Positions 4,986-21,127 of a stretch of 21,127 bases of DNA are shown here, one piece after another. The notes under the pieces are model-generated. The model did no database searches. It was not told where the DNA came from and saw only the letters and a program-made list of their open reading frames with translations. Positions within the stretch are counted from its first letter, which is position 1. Every line of letters begins with the position of its first letter. This DNA comes from a virus. Location: the IMG/VR virus record IMGVR_UViG_3300031227_000515, positions 1 to 21,127 of that record, one strand, 5' to 3'. Made by a program: the position numbers and the translations under genes.

Positions 4986-5014
4986 TTGCAGGCTTCGCTT
5001 GCTTTCGCTATTTT
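4986..5014 (+). promoter_or_regulatory. Putative sigma70-like promoter for the replication/recombination operon
   Basis: TTGCAG (4986-4991), a 17-nt spacer and TATTTT (5009-5014) lie just after the polyvalent gene stop and 46 nt before the ATG at 5061. The layout matches the two promoter-like sites at 19809 and 20029, which also use TTGC in the -35 box and TATT(C/T)T in the -10 box with 43-48 nt to the ATG. The leader resembles the one before 20100 (GAGTCGA, then CCAGGAGAATC). No experimental support. Confidence 0.45.
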
Positions 5015-5060
5015 GCCTCGTATCTTGATCCCAGAGTCGAGCCCCAAAACCAGGAGAATC

Positions 5061-5464
5061 ATGATGCGAGAGAATGCAGACCCTAAGTTCCCGCTGGAAT
5101 TATTGCCAATGAAGGTTGCCTCATATTGCTGGCAACTATCTAAGACATTTCATGTAGACGAATCCTTTGCAGGACTCTCTGCGCTAGCCGTGGCTGGTGG
5201 CGCGATGGGGAATGCCTTCACTCTGGAACTGAGGAGAAGGAAGAAGAAAAGATCTTTGGGGCATCTCAGGCAAGGAAGATAGTGGGCAAGATAGCACTAG
5301 CCCACTATGGCCTGACAATCGGAAGCGAAGGTCGGAAAACGAGGAGCTTCCCACAGGTACAAGAAGAGAACATTAGGGCAGCTATCAAGATTATGGATTG
5401 GTGTTTGTCAAAGAAAAAGCATATGTTCTCTAACCCAGCCAAACAACAGGAGAATCACCAGTGA
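5061..5464 (+). pseudogene. Decayed DUF3987-type gene: internal deletion and frameshift
   Basis: The ATG at 5061 follows CCAGGAGAATC. The first part (frame of 5061) reads KFPLELLPMKVASYCWQL and later AMGNAF. It aligns at roughly half identity with residues ~342-391 of the primase-DUF3987 protein at 13117 (PFPVDLFPEPIANYCSQV, AMGNAF). It stops at 5282. From about 5250 a different frame reads ARKIVGKIALAHYGLTI, then IMDWCL, matching ARGRLALIHHGL-type and WARWCL segments near residues 630-680 of the same protein. About 240 residues, including the P-loop, are missing, and the two parts are out of frame. It is best read as the relic of a second, diverged DUF3987 gene lacking the primase part. The stop of the second part overlaps the next GTG start (GTGA), so the relic still sits in the translated operon. 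Whether any fragment is used is unknown. Confidence 0.85.
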
Positions 5465-5595
5465 GAAGTATCCGTCGAAGCATGCTGAGATACAAGATCC
5501 GAAAGTCCCATCCATCGTTCAACCATCGCGAGAGAAGGACGGCGTTCCGCGTTGCTTGGCAGAAGGCGCAAAAGAAGACAAAGGAGTCGTCATGA
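5461..5595 (+). CDS. Small basic protein, 44 aa, unknown
   Basis: A GTG start at 5461 lies 8 nt after AGGAG (5448-5452, in the context AACAGGAGAATC used by other genes here). It overlaps the stop of the upstream relic (GTGA), and its own TGA overlaps the next ATG (ATGA at 5592-5595). The product is very rich in Arg and Lys (begins VRSIRRSMLRYKIRKSH; ends with a KKTKE tail), with no cysteine and no hydrophobic segment. A nucleic-acid contact would suit the composition, but no family is recognised. Existence is supported by the ribosome-binding site and both overlaps rather than by homology. Confidence 0.6.
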   Translation: MRSIRRSMLRYKIRKSHPSFNHRERRTAFRVAWQKAQKKTKESS

Positions 5596-5789
5596 TAGCA
5601 GGGAAAGCAGTACTGACTGACAAGGAAGTGTGCAAAATACTCCAGATCACGACGGCCACAATGAGAAATCACCTGAAAGAGGGAAAGCCTCTCTCGAAGG
5701 TGCGCCACTTCGACCTCGGCCGAGCGAGACGATGGAGCGCAACCAGCCTCAACGAGTTCATCAGCGGGAAACAGGAGACAAGAGAATGA
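5592..5789 (+). CDS. Excisionase/AlpA-like helix-turn-helix DNA-binding protein
   Basis: The 65-aa product has the MerR/excisionase-type HTH pattern. It starts LTDKEVCKILQITTATMRNH (helix-turn-helix, residues ~8-27), followed by a short wing and RHFDLGRARRW, and ends in an SLNEFI helix. This is the HTH_17/AlpA architecture found in phage excisionases and small regulators. The ATG at 5592 is preferred over the upstream in-frame TTG at 5556 because it makes an ATGA overlap with the previous gene; the stop in turn overlaps the ATG at 5786. It may act as a recombination directionality factor for the serine recombinase at 16429 or as an operon regulator; the sequence cannot separate these. Its distance from the recombinase is unusual for an xis gene. 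Confidence 0.75.
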   Translation: MIAGKAVLTDKEVCKILQITTATMRNHLKEGKPLSKVRHFDLGRARRWSATSLNEFISGKQETRE

Positions 5790-6658
5790 GCAAGAAGAAG
5801 AAGCTTTACAAGCGTAACGGCAAAGAAGTCTTGGTCCTCAAGACTGTCAATGCCGGCATGACATCTCATTACGGAAACGCATTCAAATACCCGAAGCGTG
5901 GGTGGGTGGAAGCGCATGACTGGGAAGAGTCCAGCAATGGCAGACGCGGAGCTGGACTGCATGGGATACTTTGGGGCGAAACTACGGCCCCTTTGCTCCT
6001 CAACTGGGAACCCAATGCTGTGTGGCTAGTGATTAAGGTCATCGTATCTGATGGTCTAGATCTTCAGCCAACCAAGTGCCGTTTCCGTCGTGGATATGTG
6101 CTTCACGCTGGCACAAGAAATAGCGCAACTGCCTATTTGGCTAGTAGAGTCTCCTTCGTCCCGGTTATCATTGGAGCAAGTACCACGGCAGGCTACAATG
6201 GGCAGGCCACGGCAGGCTACAATGGGCAGGCCACGGCAGGCTACAATGGGCAGGCCACGGCAGGCTACAATGGGCAGGCCACGGCAGGCTACAATGGGCA
6301 GGCCACGGCAGGCAACAATGGGCAGGCCACGGCAGGCGACAATGGGCAGGCCACGGCAGGCGACAATGGGCAGGCCACGGCAGGCTACAATGGGCAGGCC
6401 ACGGCAGGCGACAATGGGCGGGCCACGGCAGGCAACAAGGGGCAGGCCACGGCAGGCGACAATGGGCAGGCCACGGCAGGCTACAAGGGGCAGGCCACGG
6501 CAGGCGACAATGGGATAATTACCATCCGCTACTGGGACGGCTCACGCTATCGCATTGCAGTTGGCTATGTGAACGAGGATGGGATCAAACCCAACAAGAC
6601 ATATCGCCTCAATGCCACGAATCAGTTTATGGAGATCAACAAACAGGAGACAGAGTAG
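5786..6658 (+). CDS. Octapeptide-repeat phage protein (DUF7666-like), 290 aa
   Basis: The ATG at 5786 overlaps the preceding TGA and follows ACAGGAGA at 5771. There are three parts. An N-terminal domain (residues ~1-130) contains the family-like motif GAGLHGILWGE and a W-rich segment NWEPNAVWLVIKV. The middle has fourteen 8-residue repeats ATAG(Y/N/D)(N/K)GQ, nt 6182-6517. The C-terminal segment reads ITIRYWDG, then RIAVGYV and GIKPNKTYRLN. Phage and bacterial proteins of this plan, with Thr/Ala/Gly octapeptides before a YWDG-type end, are usually left hypothetical (DUF7666-like, recalled and not searched). The repeat is likely to form a beta-solenoid. The function is unknown, and its place between a regulator and a recombination ATPase gives no clear clue. 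Confidence 0.75.
   Translation: MSKKKKLYKRNGKEVLVLKTVNAGMTSHYGNAFKYPKRGWVEAHDWEESSNGRRGAGLHGILWGETTAPLLLNWEPNAVWLVIKVIVSDGLDLQPTKCRFRRGYVLHAGTRNSATAYLASRVSFVPVIIGASTTAGYNGQATAGYNGQATAGYNGQATAGYNGQATAGYNGQATAGNNGQATAGDNGQATAGDNGQATAGYNGQATAGDNGRATAGNKGQATAGDNGQATAGYKGQATAGDNGIITIRYWDGSRYRIAVGYVNEDGIKPNKTYRLNATNQFMEINKQETE
6182..6517 (+). repeat. Fourteen 24-bp tandem repeats encoding ATAG(Y/N/D)(N/K)GQ
   Basis: There are fourteen in-frame 24-bp units without a break. They differ almost only at the first base of codon 5 (TAC, AAC or GAC) and the third base of codon 6 (AAT or AAG), plus one CAG/CGG change and edge changes in the first and last units. No synonymous change is seen between units. 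Confidence 0.97.
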
Positions 6659-16428: not shown

Positions 16429-17112
16429 CTAGTATCTCTCGATCACCTTTTTGATCGTCCGTGGTCGCCACGCTTTCCCCCTGCGAAACTCTGGCATACA
16501 ATTATCCATGATCCGAGCAATCATGTATGGTTTATTCCCCTCTTTGTATAGTTCCATGATACGGGCAACTGCTGGTGCCTCGCTACTGTTGGGCACCAAC
16601 CGATCAGGGTTTGTGGGGTCTATCATGGTCCCAAACGGCGGAATGGAACTCATCTTTTTCCCAGCGCGCTGATGCTGGTGCATGGCGTCCTTGGTCCGTT
16701 GACTGATTTGCTTGCGTTCGAGCTCTGCAACTGCATCCATGATCTGGCGGACGAAAAGCACAGTCGGGTCGTTCTCGTCCCCCTCTATGTCTCCGGACAC
16801 CGCCACAATGGACGCACCCGCTTGCTTCACTTGCCGCCTAGTAAGCTCGGCGAGCATAACGTCACGGGCTATTCGGTCGCGCTTGTAGACCAGCAGAATG
16901 CTCCCCTTGCCTAGCATCGAAATCGCCTTGGCAAGCCCCGGACGGTTTGCGTCTTTGCCGCTCTTGGCCTTGTCCTCGGTAACGGCGACGATATACCAGC
17001 CCTGTTCAGCTGCATACCTACCGCATTGTGCGGCCTGGGTCTCGCAGCTCTCGCTCTCGTCCGAGTTTCGGCGAGGACTGAATCTTGTGTAGATTACGCA
17101 TTGGTCCTTCAT
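16429..17112 (-). CDS. Serine recombinase (resolvase/integrase family), 227 aa
   Basis: ATG at 17112 on the minus strand with AAGGAG 7 nt upstream; it overlaps the stop of the 49-aa gene (ATGA). The catalytic domain is clear: YTRFSPRR with R10 and S12, GKDANRPGL, and VYKRDRIARD with D79, R80 and R83, followed by the long E-helix region (ELERKQISQRTKDAM). The C-terminus carries the start of a recombinase DNA-binding region (AVARIMELYKEGNKPYMIA, WRPRTIKKVIERY) but stops there. It lacks the zinc ribbon and coiled coil of large integrases, which are usually about 450-550 aa. It is either a naturally short resolvase-type enzyme or a truncated integrase. It would catalyse site-specific recombination; no att site was identified in the window. 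Confidence 0.88.
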   Translation of the reverse strand: MKDQCVIYTRFSPRRNSDESESCETQAAQCGRYAAEQGWYIVAVTEDKAKSGKDANRPGLAKAISMLGKGSILLVYKRDRIARDVMLAELTRRQVKQAGASIVAVSGDIEGDENDPTVLFVRQIMDAVAELERKQISQRTKDAMHQHQRAGKKMSSIPPFGTMIDPTNPDRLVPNSSEAPAVARIMELYKEGNKPYMIARIMDNCMPEFRRGKAWRPRTIKKVIERY

Positions 17113-18762: not shown

Positions 18763-18990
18763 CTATTCGTCGTACTTCATCCATGCGCCGAGGATAGTTT
18801 TGGCGATGGATACACACAATTTGTGGGGGACGCCGTGACCATGACAGCACCATGAAGTCTCAACAATCCCAAGGGCGACACCTTCGGCGACATCTTGACC
18901 ACACTCGGCAACGTAGACTTCGAATGTCTCGAATCCGCTATCGCGGAAACCATTATTGAAGGCTTGTGTTAGTTCCTGCCGAATTGTCAT
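18763..18990 (-). CDS. Unknown small protein, 75 aa, first gene of the minus operon
   Basis: The ATG at 18990 (minus), preceded by ACCAGGAGAAAGACG, gives 75 aa; the longer frame to 19131 lacks a site and runs through the -10/-35 region, so it is rejected. The product has MTIRQELTQAFNNGFRDSG, FEVYVAECGQDVAEGVALG and a Cys/His cluster ETSWCCHGHGVPHKLC, ending AWMKYDE. No family is recognised. It is the first gene after the minus promoter and so likely the most strongly expressed of this operon. Confidence 0.65.
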   Translation of the reverse strand: MTIRQELTQAFNNGFRDSGFETFEVYVAECGQDVAEGVALGIVETSWCCHGHGVPHKLCVSIAKTILGAWMKYDE

Positions 18991-19039: not shown

Positions 19040-19067
19040 ACAATACATGGTGCCTTGCGCTTGTCAA
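19040..19067 (-). promoter_or_regulatory. Minus-strand sigma70-like promoter
   Basis: On the minus strand, TTGACA (19062-19067) is followed after 16 nt by TATTGT (19040-19045), with the predicted start near 19033 and the first ATG at 18990. The match to consensus is strong. The phased TGTACA array lies about 47 bp upstream of the -35 box, suggesting control by a bound protein. Confidence 0.7.
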
Positions 19068-19113: not shown

Positions 19114-19152
19114 TGTACACTCAATGTACACATACTGTACATTCTATGTACA
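19114..19152. promoter_or_regulatory. Four TGTACA palindromes exactly 11 bp apart
   Basis: TGTACA occurs at 19114, 19125, 19136 and 19147, starts exactly 11 bp apart, about one helical turn, so all four face the same side of the DNA. The motif is its own reverse complement. It is probably a cooperative protein-binding site upstream of the minus promoter; the protein is not identified. Confidence 0.8.
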
Positions 19153-19154
19153 TG

Positions 19155-19328
19155 TGTGACAGTGTAGCAAATTGTGACACTTTCACAGGTGCATGACAAC
19201 GTGTGATAGCATGACAGCGGAACGAAAGTGTGACAGCGCGTGACAAACCGCTGCAAGTGGCCAAACACCAGTGTCTTATAGCAGATTGTCACACATTGTC
19301 ATACTTTGTTACAGTGTCAAAATTGTCA
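19155..19328. repeat. Opposed arrays of TGTGACA / TGTCA boxes
   Basis: Direct boxes (T/C)(G/A)TGACA have TGACA starts at 19157, 19175, 19194, 19212, 19231 and 19241, plus a TGATA variant at 19204. Inverted boxes TGTCA lie at 19287, 19297, 19315 and 19324, with a TGTTA variant at 19307. Spacings are 8-10 or 18-19 bp. A boxless stretch (19246-19286) separates the two. This resembles iteron or partition-site layouts, but the protein is unknown. Confidence 0.7.
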
Positions 19329-19439
19329 TGCTTAAAACACGTAGGATGGCTTATATTTGCTTCAAAAGAGAGGAGGCTAAGTAGAGTATGTATATGTATG
19401 ACAATGTATATTTAGTACTACTACGTTTTAAGCATGACA
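19324..19439. repeat. 19-21 bp inverted repeat enclosing an AT-rich core
   Basis: TGTCATGCTTAAAACACGTAG (written 19324-19344) is repeated inverted at 19421-19439, differing by one 2-bp gap. The last TGTCA box begins the left arm. The 76-bp core is AT-rich. The whole could form a cruciform or mark a replication or recombination site. Confidence 0.75.
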
Positions 19440-19456: not shown

Positions 19457-19730
19457 TCTGTTACTAGCTAACAAATGCAGGAACGGCAAGAAGGGAGAGG
19501 GGAAGGGGTTAGTCCAGCCTGAGTTGGCCGATACCCTGCCTGAAATACCTGAATCCGGCCCACGACAGCAGGCGCAAGGGTGCCCTTGCGCCACACGCTC
19601 TACGTGCCTGAGCTGGCCTGTATGGTGCGTGGTGCAAGTAGGCTGTAGTGCTTGTCGTGTGTGCCTGTCAGTGCTCCAATGACCCTGATCTAGTGTCATT
19701 ATTCGAATGATCCCGATCTAGGATCTTTAC
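19440..19730. other. Non-coding stretch with a perfect palindrome and two operator-like dyads
   Basis: No convincing gene is seen; a plus ORF from 19434 lacks a ribosome-binding site. At 19571-19592 GGCGCAAGGG and CCCTTGCGCC form a perfect 10-bp inverted repeat around TG, without a U-run. At 19678-19700 (AATGAC...GTCATT) and 19709-19725 (GATCC...GGATC) two dyads share the core GATCTA. They may be operators for the plus genes at 19885 onward. Confidence 0.5.
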
Positions 19731-19732
19731 CA

Positions 19733-19745
19733 CCCCCCCCCCCCC
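19733..19745. repeat. Homopolymer tract, C13
   Basis: Thirteen consecutive C in the control region, between the dyads and the plus promoter. Length may vary or be miscalled by sequencing. Confidence 0.85.
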
Positions 19746-19808
19746 GATCTGTGTTGGGACTCCTATGTACCCTGCCTCCCTCCCGTGTGTGGTATTTGAG
19801 TAATCGGG

Positions 19809-19836
19809 TTGCAAAAATATATATTTCCGATATTCT
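19809..19836 (+). promoter_or_regulatory. Plus-strand promoter of the 19885 gene
   Basis: TTGCAA (19809-19814), 16-nt AT-rich spacer, TATTCT (19831-19836), 48 nt before the ATG at 19885. It aligns with the 20029 promoter through GGTTGC(A/C)AAAATATATA and TATT(C/T)TGG. An alternative reading is TTGAGT at 19796 with TATATT at 19820. Confidence 0.65.
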
Positions 19837-20028: not shown

Positions 20029-20056
20029 TTGCCAAAATATATAAATAGTGTATTTT
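20029..20056 (+). promoter_or_regulatory. Plus-strand promoter, near-copy of the 19809 site
   Basis: TTGCCA (20029-20034), 16-nt spacer including AAATATATA, and TATTTT (20051-20056), 43 nt before the ATG at 20100. It aligns with the 19809 site over about 34 bp. Its leader (GAGTCGA at 20073, then ACCAGGAGAATC) matches that before 5061. Confidence 0.65.
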
Positions 20057-20099: not shown

Positions 20100-20441
20100 A
20101 TGAAGTCTGCACCGCCCGTGCCGAAGCCGGCCTGCTCTGCTCTGCCATGGGGAGTGGGAGCGCCTCCTAAAGTTGATCTCCCCCCCCCCCACCCCCGACG
20201 AGGAGAACTAACAAAAAGGCTATTTCCAGGAGAGCCAGCGATATTGAACCAAACCATCCGTGGCTTGATGCTGAAAGCATATTCAAGTGGTTATCAAGCA
20301 GGGCACCACGACACCGTTGAGGGAATATTCACCGACGATCCGAGAGGAACCGACGCGGAATACTACCACGGAGATGCAGTAAACGAGGTGATTGCAGACG
20401 AGACCCGTCCTCCCACCCCCGACGCGGAGGATGAGGAATGA
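20100..20441 (+). CDS. Pro-rich N-terminus with GHHDTVEGIF module; frame depends on a C11 tract
   Basis: ATG at 20100 after ACCAGGAGAATCCCG. As written, the frame runs 113 aa: a Pro-rich start (MKSAPPVPKPACSALPWG), PPPHPRRGELTK across the C11 tract (20180-20190), then YQAGHHDTVEGIFTDD, EYYHGDAVNEVI and an acidic tail RPPTPDAEDEE. The second part closely matches the C-terminal half of the 11378 protein. If the tract lost one C, the first part would end as PPTPDEEN with TAA at 20209, resembling the real tail. The module could then start separately at TTG 20244, which has AGGAG at 20228-20232. Either one fused gene or two genes is possible. The stop overlaps the next ATG. Confidence 0.6.
   Translation: MKSAPPVPKPACSALPWGVGAPPKVDLPPPHPRRGELTKRLFPGEPAILNQTIRGLMLKAYSSGYQAGHHDTVEGIFTDDPRGTDAEYYHGDAVNEVIADETRPPTPDAEDEE
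20180..20190 (+). repeat. C11 homopolymer inside the 20100 coding frame
   Basis: Eleven C, followed by A and five more C. A one-base change would shift the reading frame downstream, so it may act as a slippage switch or be a sequencing error. CCCACCCCCGACG occurs here (20188-20200) and again at 20412-20424. Confidence 0.8.
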
Positions 20442-21127
20442 ACACAAACAAACTACAGAACACATTGGACCTGCACGGCAAATGGCTGCGGTGCGAAGAT
20501 GGTGGCCAGCGTGCCAACCTGAGCGGAAGCGACCTGCGCGGTAGCAACCTGAGCGGCAGCAACCTGAGCGACAGCGACCTGCGCGGTAGCAACCTGAGCG
20601 GCAGCAACCTGCGCGGCAGCAACCTGAGCGGAAGCGACCTGAGCGGCAGCTACCTGCGCGGCAGCGACCTGAGCGGCAGCAACCTGAGCGGAAGCAACCT
20701 GAGCGGAAGCAACCTGCGCGGTAGCAACCTGAGCGGCAGCAACCTGAGCGGAAGCAACCTGCGCGACAGCGACCTGCGCGGCAGCAACCTGCGCGGCAGC
20801 AACCTGCGCGACAGCGACCTGCGCGGCAGCAACCTGCGCGACAGCGACCTGCGCGGTAGCAACCTGAGCGACAGCGACCTGAGCGGAAGCAACCTGCGCG
20901 GAACAGCCATTGACCACACCATCCGGTCTCTGATGCGCCAATTTGTTCGAGACTGCCCTTGTCTCCGCACTGGCGGGCGGGTCGTCTATCGCACGGCAAC
21001 CAGCCAACACATTGGCTCGTGTGTCTACGAACCTGGACAGACCTATGTAGCACCATTCCTCTCGTGGTCGGCAGAAACCGCTTGCCACCCTGGCATATAC
21101 GCGGCGTCTCGTGAGTGGATGAGAGAC
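20438..21127 (+). CDS. Pentapeptide-repeat protein, 3' partial
   Basis: ATG at 20438 overlaps the previous TGA (ATGA); the frame stays open to the right edge (230 codons). The N-terminal 25 residues (LQNTLDLHGKWLRCEDGG) lead into 26 consecutive pentapeptides S-(N/D)-L-(S/R)-(G/D), predicted to form a right-handed quadrilateral beta-helix. A different domain follows (RSLMRQFVRDCPCLRTGG, then VYRTATSQHIG, CVYEPGQTYVAP and ACHPGIYAAS), resembling small C-terminal domains on some phage pentapeptide proteins. Pentapeptide proteins can mimic DNA or bind gyrase, but no such role is shown here. The end is cut by the window. Confidence 0.82.
   Translation, partial: MNTNKLQNTLDLHGKWLRCEDGGQRANLSGSDLRGSNLSGSNLSDSDLRGSNLSGSNLRGSNLSGSDLSGSYLRGSDLSGSNLSGSNLSGSNLRGSNLSGSNLSGSNLRDSDLRGSNLRGSNLRDSDLRGSNLRDSDLRGSNLSDSDLSGSNLRGTAIDHTIRSLMRQFVRDCPCLRTGGRVVYRTATSQHIGSCVYEPGQTYVAPFLSWSAETACHPGIYAASREWMRD
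20513..20902 (+). repeat. Twenty-six 15-bp repeats encoding S(N/D)L(S/R)(G/D)
   Basis: 26 uninterrupted in-frame 15-bp units. Variation sits mainly at AAC/GAC, AGC/CGC and GGN/GAC codons. Each unit ending in D (GAC) is followed by an S-D-L unit (five of five cases), pointing to copying of larger blocks. Confidence 0.95.

Follow-up and report, generated by a model that had tools for sequence, protein, structure and literature searches.

Background

Ribbon-helix-helix (RHH) proteins such as Arc and MetJ recognise small palindromic sites in helical register, with adjacent dimers bound, and their operators resemble the site described here in register and in palindromes, while its motif and step length have not been matched to a named member of the group. 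In iteron origins such as the F plasmid oriS and the PLE ori, short clustered repeats lie beside AT-rich DNA, which is again alike here, but the present locus has two motifs with different steps and no known iteron initiator was found with it. A TrpY TGTACA box and a reading of TGTGACAA as the F-plasmid RepE motif were considered and set aside, since the literature searched did not confirm the former and the paper checked did not contain the latter.

YefM/Axe antitoxins bind paired TGTACA-core palindromes cooperatively in yefM-yoeB and axe-txe (PMC4803016, PMC7730913), and this core is common to the locus studied here, which lies in a virus record of 21,127 bases (hereafter the window, meaning the whole stretch of DNA analysed). 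In those operators two palindromes 12 bp apart from centre to centre overlap the promoter, whereas the window has four at 11 bp, placed 46 bp from the -35 hexamer, and neither the window nor 26 relatives gave a match to Phd/YefM (PF02604). The mismatches in spacing, in promoter overlap and in gene content make a toxin-antitoxin operator of the YefM/Axe kind hardly credible in spite of the same hexamer core. Our results indicate that the array most likely belongs to a known general class, that of phased sites for protein binding, and that it is located in a phage control hub.

Genome context and layout of the control region

The window carries a replication module with HTH_17, AAA_24, DUF669, PDDEXK, a ResIII helicase, Prim-Pol/DUF3987, a RusA-like protein and a small serine recombinase. 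By alignment of the helicase, about 80 related loci were gathered; helicase, Prim-Pol, RusA and the serine recombinase are the traits that relatives have in common with the window. The gene order in these relatives runs from a large protein through AAA, SSB-like, nuclease, helicase and Prim-Pol to RusA, after which come the convergent recombinase that closes the leftward operon, a divergent non-coding stretch, and then terS, terL, portal and major capsid protein (names assigned from order and similarity among the relatives). In the relatives the divergent region, which in the window holds the array, has the leftward operon on one side and the terminase genes on the other; the window itself stops before terS. 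The recombinase, which is about 225 aa long and lacks the extended C-terminal portion of large integrases, is kept in many relatives. Megablast of the window against phage records gave no match, and the AAA_24 protein, a 111-aa leftward protein and the ParA pair of two viral contigs considered below (G016/G009) had no or few relatives when used as queries. The features in question are as follows.

16429..17112, minus strand: small serine recombinase that closes the leftward operon and is conserved in the family
18763..18990, minus strand: first gene of the leftward operon, 75 aa, SD AGGAGA, ATG at 18990
19040..19067, minus strand: near-consensus promoter TTGACA-16-TATTGT, 10/12 matches
19114..19152, no strand: TGTACA palindrome array, four copies at exact 11-bp steps
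19155..19245, plus strand: six TGACA, three of them as TGTGACA, immediately after the array; first at 19157, spacings 18/19/18/19/10
19287..19328, minus strand: mirror cluster of four TGTCA, spacings 10/18/9
19324..19439, no strand: AT-rich segment with a perfect inverted repeat of 15 bp at its borders, TGTCATGCTTAAAAC / GTTTTAAGCATGACA
19725..19785, plus strand: C-rich box, CTTTACCACCCCCC ... TACCCTGCCTCCCTCCCG, conserved in the family upstream of terS; candidate cos element
19812..19823, plus strand: CAAAAATATATA element, second copy at about 20033-20043, located upstream of the terminase side and conserved

Elsewhere in the window, a short ORF at 4986-5282 resembles part of the DUF3987 region in the Prim-Pol proteins of relatives and is perhaps a partial duplicate. 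Coding tandem repeats, of 24 bp (TAGYNGQA) and of a 15-bp pentapeptide-like kind, are seen at 6183-6514 and 20438-21127, and the protein with the 15-bp repeats resembles one in L189.

The TGTACA array

The original prediction described four identical self-complementary hexamers exactly 11 bp apart, and this was confirmed, with TGTACA at 19114-19119, 19125-19130, 19136-19141 and 19147-19152 (steps 11/11/11). Since the hexamers alone are kept while the spacers all differ (CTCAA/CATAC/TTCTA), the array is not a tandem repeat. The window contains 7 TGTACA in total against 2.9 +/- 1.6 expected, and the three outside the array are isolated. When all hexamers were scanned at periods of 8-13 bp, with the spacers required to differ, the array was the sole four-copy phased hexamer in the window, and no four-copy phased hexamer appeared in any of the 60 dinucleotide shuffles of the window that served as control. 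The array is not a chance product, just as had been supposed from its regular phasing.

The near-consensus minus-strand promoter that had been reported nearby is indeed present (TTGACA at 19067-19062, a 16-nt spacer, TATTGT at 19045-19040) and is the top-scoring promoter-like site of the non-coding region. The array stands upstream of it, close by as was said, although the gap to the -35 hexamer measures 46 bp and not about 47. A weaker second minus-strand site, TTGCTA/TAGAAT (19170-19141, 9/12 matches), overlaps the array; because the main promoter does not, simple steric repression is unlikely. The first leftward gene has no match in Pfam or PHROG, and relative to the predicted start of the leftward transcript the array is positioned at about -80 to -120. 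Such a position would suit an operator, or the site of an activator, through which a regulator from outside the RHH class governs the leftward promoter, the array then playing no part in replication or partition; an example of such a regulator is the HTH_17 product of 5556-5789, whose gene heads the replication operon and is conserved there. This is the gene at 5592 which had been named as a possible binder, but it was not found in several relatives that carry repeat arrays and no TGTACA array adjoins it; moreover, one HTH dimer generally calls for a palindrome longer than 6 bp. We regard a regulator of this kind as improbable, and the small basic proteins proposed along with it are not a convincing choice either, the 19885 product being a 44-aa basic peptide with no PHROG match.

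The array is only one part of a wider repeat region that was absent from the original prediction. Within a divergent non-coding region of about 890 bp (891 bp), it is continuous with the mirrored TGACA/TGTCA clusters, and TGACA/TGTCA occurs 15 times in the 891 bp, where shuffles gave a mean of 2.9 and a maximum of 8. The TGACA cluster and its TGTCA mirror could form an imperfect hairpin with 33-nt arms (19225-19257 / 19275-19307), and an imperfect hairpin is possible as well for 19205-19330 as single-stranded DNA (z = -2.1). Two sub-threshold miRNA-like matches in the region are probably due to the inverted repeat, and a known RNA was rejected.

Clustered repeats next to an AT-rich segment, as in iteron origins, are what this region displays, and the main and strong rival reading is a replication origin, although the wider region also fits a compound operator. 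The TGTACA array and the mirrored TGACA clusters would then be iterons to which a phage initiator binds, and this initiator, perhaps the Prim-Pol/DUF3987 protein or else a partner not yet seen, would melt the AT-rich DNA at 19339-19424. The mirrored clusters do lie beside the AT-rich segment with its perfect inverted repeat, and a similar layout with other motifs is seen in relatives, for example in G041, where three GATGCGGACT at 10 bp and an inverted copy stand next to a TATATA tract; TGACA is also enriched in G047, G021 and G044. Moreover, iterons and initiators are known to be swapped together as modules in phage satellites (PMC8263062). A GC-skew minimum falls at or near the region in G003 and G021, but the skew is confounded by divergent transcription and was rejected as proof of an origin. 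No Rep3 initiator match above cut-off was obtained in the window or the relatives searched, where initiators of other types are possible, the region is far from the Prim-Pol gene, and one relative (G020) is without repeat enrichment. The 11-bp step of TGTACA also disagrees with the 18/19-bp step of TGACA, which suggests a different protein for each of the two motifs. Altogether an origin seems possible but rather unlikely.

Arrays on other replicons

Among viral contigs, stretches with three TGTACA number 29 at 11 bp and 28 at 10 bp, about half of the TGTACA stretches being simple tandem repeats; the idea that raw counts single out the 11-bp step was rejected, for there is no excess over 10 bp. 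Other arrays of at least four TGTACA at 11 bp with differing spacers occur in L007, L013, L019 and L020. Of these, L007 and L020 were rejected as relatives of the window, the sole common protein being a pentapeptide-repeat protein, and TGACA enrichment was likewise rejected as a general companion of TGTACA arrays, since L188 alone has it, and weakly (p 0.02).

More informative is the gene neighbourhood. ParA-RHH operons have an array on either side of parA in two viral contigs, G016 (L193) and G009 (L191/L313), and in a plasmid-like Saprospiraceae contig, L119, and these loci have the TGTACA hexamer at 11-bp steps with free spacers just like the window. In G016 and G009, TGTACA copies, some of them degenerate, are found ahead of parA and a second time before a small RHH-like gene, in both places with an 11-bp step; the RHH identity of this gene is a matter of weak similarity and a low-confidence model (pLDDT 57). 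In L119, which carries a Rep3-type initiator, the small partner is above the Pfam cut-off for RHH_3 and RHH_1 and adjoins AAA_31 and Rep3_C genes. In a further viral contig, L192, a truncated ParA, identified from its Walker motif, is preceded by four copies. All complete ParA genes found in the array loci (3/3) are within 0.33 kb of an 11-bp array, and none turned up among the 28 loci whose arrays have a 10-bp step. Another array of G009 stands before an ERF-like gene (assigned by eye), in a position fitting an operator.

Because TGTACA arrays at 11 bp border ParA-RHH operons elsewhere, an RHH-type binder is the best single guess for the window, linked only by motif and spacing. Our preferred reading, which we hold tentatively, is that a small DNA-binding protein with two-fold symmetry, most likely an RHH protein, binds cooperatively to the array in the main divergent control region, and that the array serves as an operator and/or a centromere-type partition site. 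One dimer would bind each TGTACA palindrome and neighbouring dimers would touch along one helix face, giving a short nucleoprotein filament, so that the array upstream of the leftward promoter might act in control, in partition or in both. The original idea of cooperative binding on one DNA face, as at operators or partition sites, is reasonable and gains from the 11-bp arrays at ParA/RHH operons on unrelated replicons, while the absence of the array from relatives speaks against it.

Unlike the ParA-RHH loci, the window, an incomplete genome, has the phased TGTACA array and no parA or RHH gene. A parA-type ATPase (PF13614) was matched neither in the window nor in 26 relatives, RHH_1 gave in the same set only two sub-cut-off matches (G028 and G025), and no parA-like gene borders the array in the window. 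We infer that the gene for the binder lies in the part of the genome, roughly half, which the fragment lacks, and it may be an accessory gene, because the array was found in no relative. If the RHH reading is true, the array shows where the control hub of a hitherto undescribed environmental phage family lies, and the link of TGTACA at 11-bp steps with RHH-type partition or operator proteins would make such sites recognisable from sequence.

Control regions of related phages

A search for a conserved array in related phages had been suggested as a check, and its lack there had been named in advance as an outcome against the original prediction. In fact, the exact TGTACA-N5-TGTACA pair is present in 0/28 related records. 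Most relatives examined have other repeats in the same divergent region, namely GTTATAC (G003), TTATAAA (G045/G023), GTTTCAA (G028), ATGTTG (G030) and, as described above, GATGCGGACT (G041), and in G021 TGTCGGA is found beside TGACA. In G047 (L321) the equivalent place holds 17 TGACA/TGTCA, several at 10-11 bp steps, plus one TGTACA, while the control regions of G020, L331 and L332 show no clear repeat enrichment. Much of the family thus seems to retain a control region rich in repeats whose motifs vary, a pattern that is suggestive and not proven, since the motifs were chosen with the data in view.

With some reserve, we propose as a conceivable generalisation that the family keeps a repeat-array control region whose place, with the leftward operon on one side and the terminase genes on the other, is fixed, whereas each phage may have its own repeat motif and phasing, exchanged probably along with the protein that recognises them. 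One such vocabulary would be TGTACA at 11 bp, common to the ParA-RHH partition loci of unrelated replicons. If so, motif turnover at a fixed position would offer a natural series in which to follow the joint change of binding sites and the proteins that use them.

Between the repeats and terS, two sequences are conserved across relatives instead, namely the C-rich box, which is followed by TACCC...CCTCCC, and CAAAAATATATA, which is also upstream of the terminase genes in G003, G045, G021 and G047 and is possibly a phage promoter element. As the region is directly upstream of terS/terL in relatives, the array could be taken for a packaging element, a pac or cosB-type site for the small terminase subunit, and TGTACA arrays lie about 0.4-2.7 kb from a terminase-large-cluster gene in several unrelated phages (L016, L046, L048, L051, L059, L196, L197). 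Yet the array is not conserved with terS, and the C-rich box near terS, about 590 bp from the array, is the better cos candidate, so that a packaging role appears very unlikely.

Several further occurrences of the motif were observed. In three phages, 10-bp-step TGTACA arrays stand at or near the start of the gene that immediately precedes the putative large terminase gene (L046 2739, L048 7288, L051 4046). Several Bacteroidales MAGs (L067-L145, many loci) contain dispersed palindromic repeats of TGTACA/GTACA units at 11 bp, with many copies per genome. In two Myxococcales genomes, three TGTACA at 11 bp are located at the start of the same gene (L085 6124-6151 and L094 4759-4786; 68% identical proteins), and since the spacers differ between the two, the hexamers are conserved there and the spacers are not.
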